A stretch of 35,001 nucleotides of DNA from Anaerolineae bacterium. Its GTDB lineage: Bacteria > Chloroflexota > Anaerolineae > Aggregatilineales > Phototrophicaceae. Made by a program: the position numbers and the translations under genes. The stretch is taken from NCBI GenBank assembly GCA_026645945.1, contig JAPKMO010000039.1, positions 1 to 35,001 of the forward strand, given 5' to 3'. Below the pieces are notes generated by a model. The model did not search any database and was not told the DNA's origin. It saw only the letters and a program-made list of their open reading frames with translations. This document shows positions 26,968 to 34,819 of the stretch, piece after piece (position 1 is the stretch's first letter; each line of letters opens with the position of its first letter).

Positions 26968-27046
26968 AAAACCAGTGTACCCCAGATCAAGGCCGCTAGA
27001 GATGAAGATATGATAGACGGGTTTTCCCCGCCGCGCATTTGTGGGC

Positions 27047-27052
27047 TATAAT
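27047..27052 (+). promoter_or_regulatory. -10 box upstream of dnaE
   Basis: A perfect TATAAT lies 60 bases before ATG 27113. No clear -35 stands 17 bases upstream, but TTTTCC (27022-27027) is 19 bases away. The leader contains the 12-bp palindrome GGCTTGCAAGCC (27063-27074). Confidence 0.45.
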
Positions 27053-27112
27053 GTGTCATGGGCGGCTTGCAAGCCACCCCGGCGGAGTCCCATCGAGAAC
27101 CCTGGAAAGCCC

Positions 27113-30100
27113 ATGTCGCAAAATTCATTTGTGCATCTCCACGTCCACACGGAATATTCCCTGCTGGACGGTTTAAGCCGGATAGACCATCTGGTAAAAC
27201 GCGCCAAAGAACTCGATATGCCGGCCCTCGCCATCACCGATCATGGCGCGATGTTCGGGGTGATTGATTTTTACCGCGCCTGCAAAGCCGCCGGCATCAG
27301 GCCAATCATCGGCATGGAGGCTTACCTGGCGCGGCGTTCGCGCTTCGACAAAGACCCCAAACTGGACAAACGTCCCTATCACATGCTGCTGATCGCGCGC
27401 AGCCAGACCGGCTACCAGAATCTGCTCAAACTCGCCAGCCTGGCGCAGCTCGAAGGCCATTATTATCGCCCGCGCGTGGACTGGGAGCTGCTGGAACGCT
27501 ATCACGAAGGGCTGATCGCCACCTCTGGCTGTCTGGCGGCGGAAATCCCTTCGATGATTACCGAAGGACGCGACGACGAGGCGAAGGCCCTGATCGGCAA
27601 ATACCAGGAAGTGTTCGGTAAAGATCATTTTTACCTGGAACTTCAGCAGCACGACATCCCGGAGCTGGAAGCGCTCAACCGCTGGTTGATCGAATATCGG
27701 CGCAGCCACCATACCGATGTGCCGCTGGTTGCTACCAACGACGTGCATTACGTGATGAAAAGTGACTACGACCCGCACGATACGCTGCTGTGCATCCAGA
27801 CCGGCGCGCTAAAGAACGAAACTAACCGGCTGCGGATGTCCGACCCCAGTTATCACCTGACCACGCCGGATGAAATGTGGGGGTTCTTCGGCCAGGCCGC
27901 ACCAGAGGCGTTGAAAAACACGCTGAAGATCGCCGAAATGTGCGACGTGAGCCTGGAAAGGGAAGGCTATCATCTGCCGGTATTCCCCGTGCCGCCGGGT
28001 TACGACTCCGGCAGCTACCTGCGCTACCTGTGCGAAAAAGGACTGCGCTGGCGTTATGGCGACGGCGCGAACGACCCGGCCATACGCGAACGGCTCAACC
28101 GTGAATTGCAGATCATCGGCAGCATGGGTTTTAACACCTATTTTTTGATCGTGTGGGATTTGTGCCAGTATGCCCGCAGTGCCGACATCTGGTGGAACGT
28201 GCGCGGCTCCGGCGCGGGCAGCGTAGCGGCCTACAGCCTTGGTATCACCAACATTGACCCCATCCAGAACAACCTGCTGTTCGAGCGATTTCTCAATCCG
28301 GGGCGCGTCAGTATGCCGGATATTGACCTTGACTACCCCGACGACCGGCGCGAAGAAATGATTACCTATACCGCCCGCAAGTACGGCGAGGACAAAGTGG
28401 CGGCCATCATCACTTTTGGAACGCTGGGGCCAAAAGCTGCCGTCCGCGATGTGGGGAGGGCGCTGGGCGTGCCGCTGGAGATCGTCAACCAGGCCGCCCG
28501 GCTGATCCCCCAGGAACCGAAGCCTAAACCCCTGATGGAATACGTCGAGGGCAACCCGGAGCTGAAGGCGCTTTACGATCAGAGCAGCGAAGTCCGCCAG
28601 ATTGTGGACACCGCCGTACATTTGCAGGGCATCAGCCGCCACGCTTCAACCCATGCGGCGGGTGTGATCGTGGCCGATAAACCGCTGACGGAATATATAC
28701 CCCTGCACCGCCTGACCAACGAGGAGCAGGCGGAAACCAGCGCGCTGCGCGCCGTGACGCAGTTCCCGATGGAAACCTGTGAGCAAATCGGCCTGCTGAA
28801 GGTGGACTTCCTGGGGCTTTCCACGCTGACGATTCTGCGAAAAGCCTGCGACTTGATCGCGCAGCATCATGGCATTCGTTACACGATGGACAATATTCCA
28901 TATCGCCCCACTGGCGACCCACAAACCGACGCCATGCTCCAGGAAACGTTTGAGATGATCGGGCGCGGCGAGACGGTTGGTGTGTTCCAGGTCGAAAGTA
29001 CGGGGATGCAGCAGATGCTCCGCGACATGCGCCCGAACCGCTTCGAGCATATCGTCGCAGCGGTATCGCTTTACCGCCCTGGCCCGATGGACTTCATACC
29101 CCTGTACAACAAACGGATGCACGGCGAAGAACCGATTGAGTACCGGCACAAACTGTTAGAACCTATCCTGGCCGAGACTTACGGTATTTGTATTAGTGGC
29201 GATTCTCTGGTATTCGATGCTATCTCCGGGAAACGTTACCGGGTGGCTGAACTCAAGGATCAAACCGGCGACTTTTACATACAGGGGATTGACGAGCAAT
29301 ATCAACTGTCGATCAGCCGTGTAACGCATTGGATAGATAACGGTGTCAAACCCGTTTATCGTATGTCATTATCCAATGGCACCAGCATCAAGGCGACTGC
29401 CGATCATCAATTCTTGACCGAGACGGGCTGGAAAAATCTTGAAAGACTGTGTCCAGGTGACTATATCGCCACCCCGCGTCAGCTCACCGAGCCGATCTAT
29501 CCCGCCAAAATTGAAAAAGAAAAGCTCCGTGTGCTGGCATATCTCATTGCTGATGGCAGCCTGGCTTCAATGGCAGCGGTTGATTTCGTCAACAAAGAAC
29601 AATGTTTACTCGATGAATATGTCCGCTGTCTTGCTATATTCGAGGACGTTGAACCGGTTTGTCTTACACAGATTCGCAACGTCACCCGCATTATGAGCAG
29701 AAGACGCGGTGGCAAAGGTACAAGCAGCTTACTCGCCTGGATGCGTGAACTGGGTCTTAAGAAACCAGCCCGTTCAGGTGGCTGTCGCAGTCAGGAGAAG
29801 TTCGTACCTGATTTCGTGTTTCAACTCAGTAACGATGACATTATCTTCTTCCTGGCCTCCTTGTGGGATTGTGATGGTTACATGGGGAAGAAGTTATGTC
29901 ATTATAAAACGATCTCTGAAAAACTGGCATTTGATATTCAGACGTTGCTACTGCGTCTGGGCATTACAGTGACCGTCTACACTTCGAGCTATTCGTCGAG
30001 TAGGGGGGAACGAATCGCCTATCAAATTACAACCTACGATACGGCAAAACTGGCCGAACTATTGCAGCCTCATATGCTGACGGAGAAAAGAAACGTTCTT

Positions 30101-32146
30101 TGTACCGGACACCGGCATTTCACGATTGATCGGGCTAACTTCATTGACGAACTTAACACCCAGACGCCTCTGTCTAAAAGAGCAATCAATAAAGTATATG
30201 GCCTTTCTCGGCAGCATCTAAATAAAAGGGGGCGAGAACGAGCGCGTATATCAACCCACATTGTTCAAGACATTGCTGATACACTTGTCCTGACCAGAAC
30301 AAAGCAGATAAGCACGCTTGCCTGGGAAGAAATACAAACGATCGAACCAGCAGGCGTAGAACATGTATACGACCTTACTGTTGATCGTTTACATAATTTT
30401 GTCGCAAACAATATAATCGTGCATAACTGTGTCTATCAGGAACAGATTATGCAGATTGCAGGGCAGATCTTCGGCTACGAACTCGGCGAAGCCGACCTGA
30501 TGCGCCGCGCGGTTTCCAAAAAGAAAGAGAAAGACCTTAAGAAGCATCGCGATATATTCCTGGAGCGCGGCAAAGAGCGTGGGCTGAGTGATGACATTAC
30601 AAATAATATCTTTAATGACATAGAATTTTTTGCTAATTATGGCTTTAATAAAAGTCACGCCGCCGACTACGCGGTGATTACCTGCCAGACGGCCTTCCTC
30701 AAGTGCCACTACAAAGAAGAATATATGACGGCGCTGCTGTCCGTCCACCGCGACGACAGCGCCAAAGTCAGCCACTTTCTCAGCGAGTGCCGGCGGCTGG
30801 GCATCCCGGTGCTGCCGCCGGACGTGAACACCAGCCAGATGGACTTCGATATTCAGAAGCAGCCGGGTGGTAAACGCGGCATTCGCTTCGGCCTGGTCGC
30901 CATCAAAAACGCCGGCGCGGGGCAGCTTCAGCCCATCCTGGATGCGCGTGCCGAAGGCGGCCCGTTTGCCAGCCTGGAGGAATTCTGCCGCCGGGTGGAT
31001 TTGCGGCAGGTGGGCAAACGCACTCTGGAAAGCCTGGTCAAGGTCGGCGCGCTGGACGCGCTGGCCCCGCGCGCATCGCTGGTCAGCGCGGCGGCGCTCG
31101 ACCGGCTGATGAGCTTCAGCGCCGACGACCACCGCGCCAGGGAAGTCGGGCAGATGAGCATGTTCGGTGGAGATACCGGCGTCTCCGACACCCTCAAACT
31201 TCCCGAACCGGAAGCCCTGAGCGAACGCCAACTGCTGACCTGGGAAAAGGAACTGCTCGGCCTGTACGTTACGGGGCGTCCAGTGGACAAAGTGCGCGGG
31301 ATGCAGCGCGATTCCAACACGGCGGAAATCGCCCTGCTCAAGGCTGACCCGTCGGTTTGGGCCGGCAAAACCGTGACGCTGGTCGGCGAGGTGGCGGCGC
31401 TGCGAAAGATCGTCACTAAAAACGGGCAGATGATGGGCGTCGTCCAGCTGGAGGACTGGCACGATTCGGCGGACACGATTGAGGTGGTTCTGTTCCCACG
31501 CACCTGGGATCAGTTTCACGAGATGGTGGACGAAGGTAACGTGCTGATGTTTACCGGCAAAGTGGATATGCAGCGCGGCGATGTGCAGATCATCTGTGAC
31601 AAAGTGAGCAAGGATTTACGCACAACAAGCGCCGCCGAGCCGGCGCAGATCGCCATGCAGGACGAACCGCCCTACTGGGCATCCGACGAGCTGTATGACG
31701 AGGAAACCGGCGAAATAGCGCCCCCACCCACCATCCCTGAACCGGCGCCAATGGCGGCGGTCGCCCCGGCCACGCAGGGCGCGTTGGCAGCGCCCATCCC
31801 GTCGGTCGAGCCGCAGTTCGCGCCGCCGCCGCCCGACCCGGCCTGGAATGATGACCTGCCAGACTTTCTGCCGGAAAAACCAGCACCTCCCGCGCAGCGA
31901 TGGGTGATGGTGTATTTCCAGCGTTCTGGCGACGCAGACAAAGACCGCCGCAAACTGCGCCGGCTGCACGGGCTTTTACTGCAATATCCCGGCCAGGATC
32001 GTTTTTCGATTGTGGTCGAAGGGCGCGGGCAAGCGTTTACGATGGAGTTCCCCAACCACACCACCGCCTACTGCGACGATCTGGTGGCCGAACTTTCGAG
32101 CGTGGTCGGGGAAAACAATATCGAAGTGTTCGACCGAAGTGGTTAA
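27113..32146 (+). CDS. dnaE: DNA polymerase III alpha subunit with intein
   Basis: The replicative C-family polymerase, 1677 residues as translated and 1264 after intein removal. It has an N-terminal PHP domain (FVHLHVHTEYSLLDGLSRID). The palm has PDIDLDYPDDRREEM and VDFLGLSTLTILRKA, which hold the three catalytic Asp residues. Thumb and fingers follow, with KSHAADYAVITCQTAFLKCH. Then come a tandem HhH segment (RQVGKRTLESLVKVGALDAL) and an OB fold (VTLVGEVAALRKIVTKNGQM). After a Pro-rich linker there is a C-terminal domain with WVMVYFQRSGDADKDRRKLR. The start is ATG 27113, where PHP begins at once; the open frame from 27041 has no family likeness. An intein interrupts residues 693-1105. Confidence 0.96.
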   Translation: MSQNSFVHLHVHTEYSLLDGLSRIDHLVKRAKELDMPALAITDHGAMFGVIDFYRACKAAGIRPIIGMEAYLARRSRFDKDPKLDKRPYHMLLIARSQTGYQNLLKLASLAQLEGHYYRPRVDWELLERYHEGLIATSGCLAAEIPSMITEGRDDEAKALIGKYQEVFGKDHFYLELQQHDIPELEALNRWLIEYRRSHHTDVPLVATNDVHYVMKSDYDPHDTLLCIQTGALKNETNRLRMSDPSYHLTTPDEMWGFFGQAAPEALKNTLKIAEMCDVSLEREGYHLPVFPVPPGYDSGSYLRYLCEKGLRWRYGDGANDPAIRERLNRELQIIGSMGFNTYFLIVWDLCQYARSADIWWNVRGSGAGSVAAYSLGITNIDPIQNNLLFERFLNPGRVSMPDIDLDYPDDRREEMITYTARKYGEDKVAAIITFGTLGPKAAVRDVGRALGVPLEIVNQAARLIPQEPKPKPLMEYVEGNPELKALYDQSSEVRQIVDTAVHLQGISRHASTHAAGVIVADKPLTEYIPLHRLTNEEQAETSALRAVTQFPMETCEQIGLLKVDFLGLSTLTILRKACDLIAQHHGIRYTMDNIPYRPTGDPQTDAMLQETFEMIGRGETVGVFQVESTGMQQMLRDMRPNRFEHIVAAVSLYRPGPMDFIPLYNKRMHGEEPIEYRHKLLEPILAETYGICISGDSLVFDAISGKRYRVAELKDQTGDFYIQGIDEQYQLSISRVTHWIDNGVKPVYRMSLSNGTSIKATADHQFLTETGWKNLERLCPGDYIATPRQLTEPIYPAKIEKEKLRVLAYLIADGSLASMAAVDFVNKEQCLLDEYVRCLAIFEDVEPVCLTQIRNVTRIMSRRRGGKGTSSLLAWMRELGLKKPARSGGCRSQEKFVPDFVFQLSNDDIIFFLASLWDCDGYMGKKLCHYKTISEKLAFDIQTLLLRLGITVTVYTSSYSSSRGERIAYQITTYDTAKLAELLQPHMLTEKRNVLCTGHRHFTIDRANFIDELNTQTPLSKRAINKVYGLSRQHLNKRGRERARISTHIVQDIADTLVLTRTKQISTLAWEEIQTIEPAGVEHVYDLTVDRLHNFVANNIIVHNCVYQEQIMQIAGQIFGYELGEADLMRRAVSKKKEKDLKKHRDIFLERGKERGLSDDITNNIFNDIEFFANYGFNKSHAADYAVITCQTAFLKCHYKEEYMTALLSVHRDDSAKVSHFLSECRRLGIPVLPPDVNTSQMDFDIQKQPGGKRGIRFGLVAIKNAGAGQLQPILDARAEGGPFASLEEFCRRVDLRQVGKRTLESLVKVGALDALAPRASLVSAAALDRLMSFSADDHRAREVGQMSMFGGDTGVSDTLKLPEPEALSERQLLTWEKELLGLYVTGRPVDKVRGMQRDSNTAEIALLKADPSVWAGKTVTLVGEVAALRKIVTKNGQMMGVVQLEDWHDSADTIEVVLFPRTWDQFHEMVDEGNVLMFTGKVDMQRGDVQIICDKVSKDLRTTSAAEPAQIAMQDEPPYWASDELYDEETGEIAPPPTIPEPAPMAAVAPATQGALAAPIPSVEPQFAPPPPDPAWNDDLPDFLPEKPAPPAQRWVMVYFQRSGDADKDRRKLRRLHGLLLQYPGQDRFSIVVEGRGQAFTMEFPNHTTAYCDDLVAELSSVVGENNIEVFDRSG
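29189..30427 (+). other. DnaE intein with LAGLIDADG (DOD) homing endonuclease
   Basis: A self-splicing protein element of 413 residues. It lies between TYGI and CVYQEQIMQ of DnaE, next to the conserved VYQEQ segment. Residue 1 is Cys in CISGDSLVFDA (block A). Block B is GTSIKATADHQFLTETGW with the T70xxH73 pair. Blocks F and G are VYDLTVDRLHNFVANN and IIVHN with terminal His-Asn, and the +1 extein residue is Cys. The endonuclease motifs LAYLIADGS (about 117-124) and LASLWDCDGYM (222-232) each keep their Asp. All splicing residues are present, so it should splice, and the nuclease may be active. Its codons are more AT-rich than the exteins. It is contiguous, not split. Confidence 0.95.
30587..30655 (+). 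other. AT-rich coding tract at an empty intein site in dnaE
   Basis: About 15 of these 69 bases are G or C, in a gene that is otherwise clearly GC-rich. The tract encodes NIFNDIEFFANYGFNKS. Its centre, between Tyr and Gly of ANYGFNKSH, corresponds to the position where cyanobacterial DnaE carries its split intein (EY/CFNKSHS). No intein is present here. See findings. Confidence 0.6.
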
Positions 32147-33433: not shown

Positions 33434-33820
33434 TCACCGTTCTAACGCCGCTTCGATTTCCTCTCGCAGCGTCTCCTCAGCAATAATGCCAAATCCCCGG
33501 TATGTTTCGCGGCCATCCGGCAGGAAGATGACGTATCCGGGATGGCCGGGCCGCGCCAGCCGTTCATAAGCCGCCTGCCCCTGGTCGCCGTCGGCAGCAT
33601 TCAAATAAACAAAATCCACCCTGTCGCCAAATGCATCCTGAAGCCCCTCCACGATGGGCCGCATCAACGTTCAAGACGCTCACGGGTTGGTGAAAAACCA
33701 TAGAAAAGTTGGTTTATCCTCCACCAGCGGCAGGCGCTGGGCCGGCGCATCTGCCGGGGCGCAGGCCGTCATCACCGACAGCGCAACAAGCATCCCCAAT
33801 CGAACGAACAGGTGCATCAT
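33434..33820 (-). CDS. Thioredoxin-like lipoprotein with two in-frame TGA codons (UxxU candidate selenoprotein)
   Basis: A 128-residue frame from ATG 33820 (or 33817) to TGA at 33434. A lipobox-type signal comes first (MLVALSVMTAC, Cys21). Then EDKPTFLWFFTNP leads to the motif x-A-S-x-TLMRPIVEGLQDAFGD, then DFVYLNAADGDQGQ, the cis-Pro region RPGHPGYVIF and the helix EETLREEIEAALER. This is a thioredoxin fold with all parts in order. The two x positions are TGA codons, at 33682-33680 and 33673-33671, where the family has the CxxC cysteines. The same frame has no other stop. If read as selenocysteine, the protein is a UxxU oxidoreductase anchored outside the membrane. The alternative is a pseudogene with two stops at just these codons. 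Other genes here use TGA as stop. Confidence 0.72.
33631..33664 (-). promoter_or_regulatory. Candidate SECIS hairpin
   Basis: Directly downstream of the two TGA codons on the minus strand. Inner stem GGCCC (33660-33656) pairs with GGGCT (33646-33642) around the loop ATCGTGGAG. Outer stem ATGC (33664-33661) pairs with GCAT (33634-33631), with a 7-base bulge on the 3' side. It begins 6 bases after the second TGA. Bacterial SECIS hairpins lie just downstream of the UGA and are about this size. The fold was read by eye, not computed. Confidence 0.3.
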
Positions 33821-33844: not shown

Positions 33845-34430
33845 GGTCTTGACCCGATTTGGTGGAGGGTTCATAAGAGACACTTCAGGATAAATAGTCG
33901 GCTTCATAGGCCAGTGGACTATAGTAGCCCAGCGACGAATGTAACCGCTGACGATTGTAGAACACTTCAATGAAGTCGAATACGGCGGTACGAGCAGCCT
34001 GCCGGGTAGCAAAGCGCTCCAGGTCGGTCAACTCCGCCCGCAGCGGGCTGAAGAAACTTTCCATCATGGCATTGTCATAGGGATCAGCCTTACCGCTCAT
34101 GCTGAATACCGTGTGCCTTCAGCAGCTCCAGGTAATTGTCGGCTGTGTATTGGCTGCCACGATCCGTATGCTGGATCAGGTCGCTATCCTCAGGCAGTTC
34201 GCGCCGGGCTAAGGCCATGCGTAAGGCTGCCTCTACCAGTGCTTCATCGCGGTAGATGCTCATGGCCCAGCCTACAATCAGCCGTGAATAGGTGTCTAGC
34301 AACGCGGCCAGGTACAGCCAGCCTTCATCCGTCCAGATGCCCACGCTGTCGCCGACCCCTTTCTCGTTAGGCGCATCGGCACTGAAATCCCGCTGGAGTA
34401 GATTGGGAGCTGTCACTTTACGGGCGAAAA
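33845..34430 (-). mobile_element. Truncated IS3-family element
   Basis: Remnant of an IS3-type element carrying the C-terminal part of its transposase. The left limit near 33845 is judged from the end of the transposase and is not supported by a confirmed terminal repeat. On the right it is cut at about 34430 by the IS21-type end repeats. Its left end lies about 25 bases from the start codon of the UxxU thioredoxin-like gene and may have replaced that gene's promoter. Confidence 0.6.
33885..34428 (-). pseudogene. IS3-family transposase (orfB) C-terminal fragment, frameshifted
   Basis: The N-terminal side of the core reads APNLLQRDFSADAPNEKGVG then DSVGIWTDEGWLYLAALLD, where family members have NxxWVGDIT; the W and the IT are changed. 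The second Asp is in LIQHTDRGSQYTADNYLELL. At about 34096 the frame shifts, apparently by loss of about five bases. The rest is MSGKADPYDNAMMESFFSPL (with the catalytic Glu in MMESFF) and HSSLGYYSPLAYEADYLS, ending TGA at 33885-33887. The N-terminus is missing. It cannot act. Confidence 0.85.
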
Positions 34431-34819
34431 TGTACCAGAGGTTTTCACCGAAACTGTACCAGTGATGTTCACCCAGAATAGGCCAGGTAGATGGCACAAC
34501 TCCTGTGCCAACCGTATCCTTCCGCTGAGGCGCACCAGCAGCAGCGGGAGGGGGTATGGCAAACAGGAGGAAAGACAGTATGGAGATACAAGAAATCGTA
34601 CGCCGCCTGCGGGCTGGCGACAGCGACCGGGCCATCCACCAGGCGCTGGGGATGCACCGGGAGACGGTGAAGAAGTACCGGGTGTGGGCCACCGAACAAG
34701 GGCTGCTCACCGGCGAACTACCGTCAGTGGCCGAACTGCATCAATTACTGTCAAGTAACGCCTGAAAGTGTGCCACCCAGTGTGCCGCGCAGACAGCCAC
34801 TCCTGTGCATCCTTCAACG
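34431..34819 (+). mobile_element. IS21-family left end with istA fragment
   Basis: Two direct repeats spaced 24 bases apart, TGTACCAGAGGTTTTCACCG (34431) and TGTACCAGTGATGTTCACCC (34455), are like the multiple terminal repeats bound by IS21 transposase. They precede a truncated istA on the plus strand. The element breaks off at about 34810, where a minus-strand istB end begins. Confidence 0.65.
34580..34765 (+). pseudogene. istA: IS21-family IstA, N-terminal fragment
   Basis: The 61-residue N-terminus of an IS21 transposase. MEIQEIVRRLRAGDSDRAIH is followed by the HTH QALGMHRETVKKYRVWATEQ. ATG 34580 follows GGAGG (34566-34570). The frame ends in TGA at 34763-34765. One base out of phase the text continues in a family-like way, TPESVPPSVPRRQPLL, so a frameshift has broken the gene. 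The DDE core is absent because the element is cut soon after. Confidence 0.8.

Follow-up and report, generated by a model that had tools for sequence, protein, structure and literature searches.

Selenoproteins in which two selenocysteines (Sec, U) lie two residues apart, in a UxxU motif, are rare in print. One of them is SelL of fish, in which Shchedrina et al. reportedly described a diselenide in 2007. In the available parts of the published accounts, UxxU is given for SelL, for SELENOW of an alga and of amphioxus, and for bacterial peroxiredoxin-like (Prx-like), FmdB-like and metal-binding families (PMC13188914, PMC9312934, PMC2398784, PMC7539508, PMC3316567). The two Sec residues of SelL are reported to share one SECIS (PMC3316567, available part), and the accessible text on bacterial Prx-like 2 includes UxxU sequences (PMC2398784). 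The catalogues of 2022 and 2026, as far as their available parts go, record UxxU for peroxiredoxin-like, FmdB-like and metal-binding proteins, and thioredoxin only as UxxC (PMC9312934, PMC13188914).

The gene described here lies in a window of 35,001 nucleotides, the whole stretch of DNA that was analysed, which represents contig C187 of the 4.7-Mb genome, in 254 contigs, of an uncultured Chloroflexota bacterium. An earlier note on this DNA had proposed it as a UxxU selenoprotein candidate, and the proposal is supported by the Sec genes of the host, the conservation of the TGA codons and a covarying hairpin. Together with computed purifying selection and a predicted fold, these findings give high confidence in a candidate family of double-Sec (UxxU) proteins, with Sec predicted at both sites, made by means of one SECIS hairpin for two UGAs. 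The window protein itself very probably carries two Sec in place of the two Cys of thioredoxin.

The closest described systems each share part of this arrangement. SelL of fish and the marine Prx-like 2 resemble the window protein in having two Sec two residues apart. They are peroxiredoxin-like, whereas the window protein is thioredoxin-like and matches no Pfam family of the peroxiredoxin type at E up to 1; the likeness to SelL drawn in the earlier note therefore holds for the motif and not for the family. The eukaryotic SECIS is placed in the 3' UTR in the available part of PMC13188914, while the predicted one of the window gene lies within the coding sequence. With the bacterial thioredoxin selenoproteins (PF00085, UxxC) the window protein shares a thioredoxin fold and a predicted Sec in place of the first Cys. 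Those selenoproteins are catalogued with one Sec in the accessible parts of PMC13188914 and PMC9312934, whereas the window protein has two and stays below the PF00085 cut-off (17.2 versus 23.5 bits in Pfam).

Bacterial UxxU proteins, as far as the available sources go, include the Prx-like thiol:disulfide oxidoreductases (PF00578, UxxC or UxxU), the FmdB-like proteins (TIGR02605) and NF041115. These are other domains, and the window protein matches none of them. NF041057, the Rcas_1661 family, is likewise a thioredoxin-like (seleno)lipoprotein; it is of the DsbG/Thioredoxin_4 type and gives no match with the window protein. A protein near one UxxU gene comes close to NF041057 in score (160.5 versus a cut-off of 190). 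In NCBIfam no family exceeds its cut-off for the window protein, and the thioredoxin models match below theirs. No description of a UxxU thioredoxin-like lipoprotein family was recognised in searches of the open-access literature. Since the protein matches no known UxxU family and the catalogues give thioredoxin only as UxxC, it would represent a new variant of UxxU selenoproteins.

Translated with TGA as U, the frame from 33820 to 33434 on the minus strand has 129 codons and reads MMHLFVRLGMLVALSVMTACAPAD...FFTNP-U-AS-U-TLMRPIVEGL...AALER-TGA. It encodes a lipoprotein signal followed by a thioredoxin-like domain. Apart from the terminal TGA (codon 129), stops in this frame occur only at codons 47 and 50, and these two TGAs lie between FFTNP and TLMRPIVEGL. 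Translation thus confirms the earlier claim that a lipoprotein signal and a thioredoxin-like fold share a single frame, interrupted only by TGAs at the CxxC. When TGA is read as a stop, the only part of this frame that forms an ORF of at least 60 aa is the part 3' of the second TGA, so genes of this kind are easily overlooked. The features are collected in the table.

Table. Features of the UxxU locus, in window coordinates.
Feature	Position	Strand	Description	Basis
UxxU thioredoxin-like lipoprotein CDS	33434..33820	(-)	128 residues, terminal stop TGA 33436-33434	translation, fold, purifying selection
UGA-1 = codon 47, predicted first Sec	33680..33682	(-)	first Cys position of CxxC	
UGA-2 = codon 50, predicted second Sec	33671..33673	(-)	second Cys position of CxxC	
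Lipobox cysteine, codon 20 of signal	33761..33763	(-)	invariant in 60-row UxxU protein alignment	
SECIS-like hairpin core	33643..33659	(-)	columns 24-40 from UGA-1, loop CGTGG	covariation, excess structure
Small HMA (CopZ-like) protein, 69 aa	33173..33382	(+)	convergent with UxxU gene	Pfam HMA

The structure predicted by AlphaFold2 (mean pLDDT 90, pTM 0.76) has a strand at residues 38-43 and a helix at 48-64, with the motif (47-50) at the start of the helix, as in a thioredoxin fold. Searched with Foldseek, the PDB gives a thioredoxin as best match (E 5e-8, TM 0.64/0.76), and thioredoxins, alone or in fusions, make up most of the best 50. Sixty of the 72 UxxU rows were used for aligning the proteins and predicting the structure. 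Invariant in this alignment, besides the lipobox cysteine, are both motif positions, V57, G92-H93-P94 and G111.

Profile searches for relatives covered two overlapping sets of genomes, 396 from the class and 98 from the family, and gave at least 72 UxxU loci in 64 genomes. For comparison, 18 UxxC and 9 CxxC loci were hand-picked from the listings; they are a non-random sample, in which the CxxC loci are few and heterogeneous. Both TGAs fall on the CxxC positions in all 72 listed two-TGA loci, the window included, and their 8477 codons contain no further in-frame stop. This agrees with the earlier argument that random decay would be unlikely to place stops at just these two codons. The first CxxC position is TGA in 72/72 UxxU and 18/18 UxxC loci read, and at the second the 72 UxxU loci all have TGA, the 18 UxxC loci a Cys codon (TGC or TGT). 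Among close relatives the motifs are UPPC (L175), UARC (L176) and CPNC (L177 and L178). The question raised in the earlier note, whether Cys or TGA stands at the two sites in homologues, is thus answered by relatives with TGA at both and by UxxC and CxxC forms as well. The in-frame UGA is conserved against Cys or Sec in relatives, and coding sequence continues beyond it.

A contig scan of genomes gave three relatives. Each of them has both TGAs: the motif is UAPU in 'Chloroflexi bacterium isolate CFX2', and two 'Anaerolineae bacterium' MAGs have UPPU. The loci L104, L144 and L145 are on the same contigs as L018, L019 and L020. A search of 400 genomes of the phylum added two two-TGA rows among the matches listed. 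One, G799, lies outside the class and has UIPU with a fully paired hairpin. The other, G064, is a UxxC form (UIAC), its second counted TGA being its terminal stop. In a tree of 94 columns with many open forks, two UxxC rows and the CPNC rows are placed among UxxU rows, the CPNC branch being long and its support moderate.

Over the 77 codons 3' of the second TGA, comparison of the window gene with the 88-90% identical L018/L104 gives dN 0.041 and dS 0.223, a ratio of 0.19. The ratio is 0.32 over the 25 codons 5' of the TGAs (window gene versus L104), and both values come from few sites. Judged from these alignments, selection on the window copy is still purifying relative to its close relative L104.

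Thioredoxin-like lipoproteins of one clade usually have UxxU (at least 64 genomes), and UxxC and CxxC relatives are there for comparison. The clade makes two questions directly testable: how one bacterial SECIS might serve two UGAs, and what the active site of a thioredoxin gains from the second selenium. From the sequences, the UxxU thioredoxin-like lipoproteins are a real, if predicted, selenoprotein family in related Chloroflexota, often near copper-handling genes. Thioredoxin-like UxxC selenoprotein candidates, with a hairpin at the same position, are also frequent in these Chloroflexota genomes (L175, L176, L179-L182, L184-L194, L199, L239, L245 and L250).

The gene neighbourhoods bear on what the protein may do. 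A P1B-type ATPase lies within 5 kb of 30/72 UxxU genes, compared with 2/27 UxxC/CxxC genes (Fisher 0.0007, a value that ignores relatedness and uses hand-picked controls). Within the same distance, a cytochrome c is found at 28/72 UxxU versus 1/27 UxxC/CxxC loci, at least one of Thioredoxin_4, DsbD, rhodanese, PCYCGC and DUF1573 at 27/72 versus none of the 27 controls, and cupredoxins at 6/72 versus 0/27. These counts are lowered by the many contigs that end early, and the neighbour families were named from one representative each. The ATPase at L144 has a copper-translocating score (TIGR01511, 569 bits). At L138, L145, L148, L154 and L156 the P1B ATPase is on the same strand and ends less than 100 nt upstream of the match. 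Domains of the types Thioredoxin_4, rhodanese, PCYCGC and DUF1573, seen in neighbours at L143 (5389-6150), L148 (2655-3146), L173 (3601-4071) and L133 (6873-7454), also occur as selenoproteins in the available parts of published catalogues (PMC13188914, PMC9312934).

The window has no P1B ATPase within 5 kb of the gene; its near neighbour is the HMA protein, which has a Pfam HMA match and a TIGR00003 match below the cut-off. By direct search, an HMA ORF is present within 1 kb at 14/72 UxxU, 1/18 UxxC and 2/9 CxxC loci. A first count (6/72, 1/18 and 1/9) had missed HMA genes beneath longer opposite-strand ORFs. A specific tie of the HMA gene to the Sec state was considered and rejected, both CxxC matches being the close relatives L177 and L178. 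Since these CxxC relatives also have the gene, it marks the locus and not the Sec state. The redox role in metal handling that the earlier note had thought possible gains moderate support from the neighbourhoods and keeps its standing as a suggestion.

The UxxU protein would act as an extracytoplasmic diselenide/diselenol oxidoreductase. Its likeliest clients, on the evidence of the neighbours, may be copper-handling and cytochrome-type surface proteins, an assignment made tentatively. A redox role of the family toward copper and cytochromes is suggested by the neighbour genes, the P1B ATPase near 30/72 loci among them. The main alternative is a general thiol/disulfide quality control at the surface with no specific copper role, the copper and cytochrome genes being nearby because surface redox genes cluster. 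It has close to an even chance. The 42/72 UxxU loci without a P1B ATPase match within 5 kb are in keeping with it, and so are the DsbG-like Thioredoxin_4, DsbD_TM, rhodanese and DUF1573 proteins among the neighbours; the excess of P1B ATPases over the controls argues for the copper and cytochrome assignment instead, as do the cupredoxins and HMA proteins that recur near UxxU genes.

Insertion of Sec would depend on a putative RNA signal within the gene. A scan of the window against Rfam at gathering thresholds gave no match. Stability was measured by folding 42-nt windows at 36 offsets per gene, with 60 synonymous-codon shuffles of each gene as its reference. In UxxU genes the excess stability is confined to offsets 0 to +18, counted from the first TGA (mean z -1.15, -1.01, -1.23 and -1.10), and at all remaining offsets the mean z is within 0.33 of zero. 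UxxC genes are alike at offsets 0 to +18 (z -0.92 to -1.21). CxxC genes have no such stability except for -0.51 at offset 0, a noisy value (n=9, with means to -0.78 elsewhere).

The stability corresponds to a hairpin with a 6-bp stem and a 5-nt loop, in which columns 24-29 pair with columns 35-40, counted from the first TGA, and the loop is CGTGR in nearly all UxxU rows. In the 72 listed UxxU sequences 95.6% of the cells are paired, and sliding the partners abolishes the pairing. Doubly changed cells number 19; shuffling gives a mean of 4.0 and, in 500 trials, never a value as high, in a comparison that ignores relatedness. When UxxU and UxxC genes are taken together (89 distinct sequences), five of the six pairs have changes on both sides. 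All six pairs are formed in 56/72 UxxU, 17/18 UxxC and 0/9 CxxC loci. The 17-nt core reaches the SECIS free-energy threshold, at or below -7.5 kcal/mol, in 43/72, 16/18 and 0/9 respectively. A SECIS-like hairpin with covariation is thus present just downstream of the UGAs, where the earlier note had advised looking for a bacterial SECIS.

The loop codons are also constrained at their third bases. The C of ATC is kept in 72/72 UxxU loci and the G of GTG in 71/72, compared with 2/9 and 4/9 in CxxC loci. Because these bases are fixed in UxxU and not in CxxC genes, the conserved P-I-V-x-G-L is probably at least partly an RNA signature. The start of the loop is 26 nt away from UGA-1 and 17 nt from UGA-2. 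The spacing of bacterial SECIS elements is published as 16-37 nt (PMC13188914, available part); both distances fall inside this range, so a single hairpin can serve both UGAs.

In the proposed mechanism, the SECIS hairpin in the P-I-V-x-G-L codons would recruit SelB with Sec-tRNA. Recruitment would occur first with UGA-1 in the A site, 26 nt before the loop, and next with UGA-2, 17 nt before it. The last UGA, downstream of the hairpin, would terminate. The product would be an extracytoplasmic thioredoxin-fold lipoprotein with Sec-x-x-Sec instead of CxxC, and it would then act as a diselenide/diselenol oxidoreductase outside the membrane. A more specific version combines one coding-region SECIS that recodes two UGAs nine nucleotides apart with a diselenol/diselenide that acts directly on the copper exported by the P1B ATPase; as a whole this is rather unlikely. 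Acting on copper would there mean binding Cu(I) or keeping copper-site and haem-site cysteines reduced. If this version were true, P-I-V-x-G-L would be partly the imprint of an RNA hairpin rather than of protein function.

Another model accepts the hairpin and limits its effect. Only one of the UGAs, either the nearer (UGA-2, 17 nt) or the farther (UGA-1, 26 nt), would be read efficiently as Sec, the other would mostly stop translation, and the double-Sec protein would be a minor product. A single hairpin is seen for both codons, and in the 18 UxxC relatives, which have the hairpin in common with the UxxU genes, it serves UGA-1 alone; the window hairpin, moreover, is weaker than most. A codon that is read inefficiently should drift to Cys, as has happened in L175, L176, L177 and L178, yet both TGAs are kept in 72/72 listed loci with purifying selection beyond them. 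The model is improbable on this balance.

For the window copy itself the efficiency of the SECIS is less certain than for the family, because one pair of its hairpin is mismatched. Its stem consists of G-C, C-G, C-G, C-G, an A x G mismatch and T-A (5/6 pairs: 4 bp, mismatch, 1 bp), with a core energy of -5.8 kcal/mol. Over the 48-nt region an alternative fold is slightly better (-14.7, versus -12.9 with the stem held). The stem-held energy is usable for the window only; for L104 it forces a non-standard pair and is not meaningful.

Evidence for selenoprotein synthesis in the host can be provided by its Sec genes. The search covered the full set in the window genome, selA in the 98 family genomes, and selB, SepSecS and tRNA-Sec in eight of these; ARAGORN was applied only to the best tRNA-Sec matches that were fetched. 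The host has a tRNA-Sec with anticodon TCA on C181 (68.3 bits, over the Rfam cut-off), SelB on C199 (370 bits), SelA on C124 (553 bits) and SelD on C172 (357 bits). The selD gene has an in-frame TGA, read by eye, in the motif CAG-TGA-ASK (L016, 1531-1533). With tRNA-Sec, selA, selB and a TGA-containing selD in its genome, the host is equipped for making selenoproteins, and the absence of Sec machinery that would have spoken against the candidate was not encountered. Further predicted selenoproteins of the same genome are SelD itself (L016, 1489-1533) and a thioredoxin-like UTTC protein (L192, G000:C221) with the same hairpin as the UxxU gene.

Within the family, selA exceeds its cut-off in 74/98 genomes: in 20/23 with a listed UxxU gene versus 54/75 others, a comparison within the family, outside which the other 41 UxxU genomes lie. 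The full set of selA, selB, selD and tRNA-Sec is found in the window genome and not in three other UxxU genomes. These are G590, a one-contig genome (L108), G689 (L153) and G698 (L147, L155 and L173). In their UxxU genes 5 or all 6 of the hairpin pairs are formed, yet no selA, SelB or SepSecS exceeds the cut-off in these genomes. They are the main evidence against a double-Sec family; the imperfect hairpin of the window copy and the broken transposase beside it also count against this reading. In G689 and G698 a match to the tRNA-Sec model lies just over the cut-off and is called tRNA-Ser by ARAGORN; the best matches in G590 are also tRNA-Ser. Other members of the genera of G590 and G689 (G525 and G690) do have selA. 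SepSecS as a route for the three selA-less genomes was rejected, with no match over the cut-off in the eight genomes searched. That the TGAs reflect a pseudogene or an assembly error, or another amino acid under a changed genetic code, is extremely improbable and was rejected: the three genomes without detected Sec machinery and a transposase remnant directly upstream of the window copy (33885-34710, minus strand, integrase core/rve families, two frames) would suit it, but both codons are kept in 72/72 listed loci without another in-frame stop, the hairpin covaries, the host has the full Sec gene set, dN/dS is 0.19, and TGA is the gene's own terminal stop in the window and L018 (TAG in L019).

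A replacement of Sec by Cys may be seen in G660 and G661, which belong to the window's genus and have the closest CxxC forms (CPNC). Neither has a selA match, a SelB over the cut-off or a tRNA-Sec, their best tRNA-Sec-model matches being tRNA-Ser. Their hairpins retain 4 and 3 of the 6 pairs, and the convergent HMA gene is kept beside the thioredoxin gene, as in the window. CxxC relatives of this type, in which no Sec machinery was detected, the hairpin has decayed and the convergent copper-chaperone-like gene is retained, appear to represent a natural replacement.

Elsewhere in the window, the dnaE gene for DNA polymerase III alpha (27041-32146, plus strand), whose orthologous ORF in L018 is without the insert, contains an intein with Intein_splicing and LAGLIDADG_3 domains.
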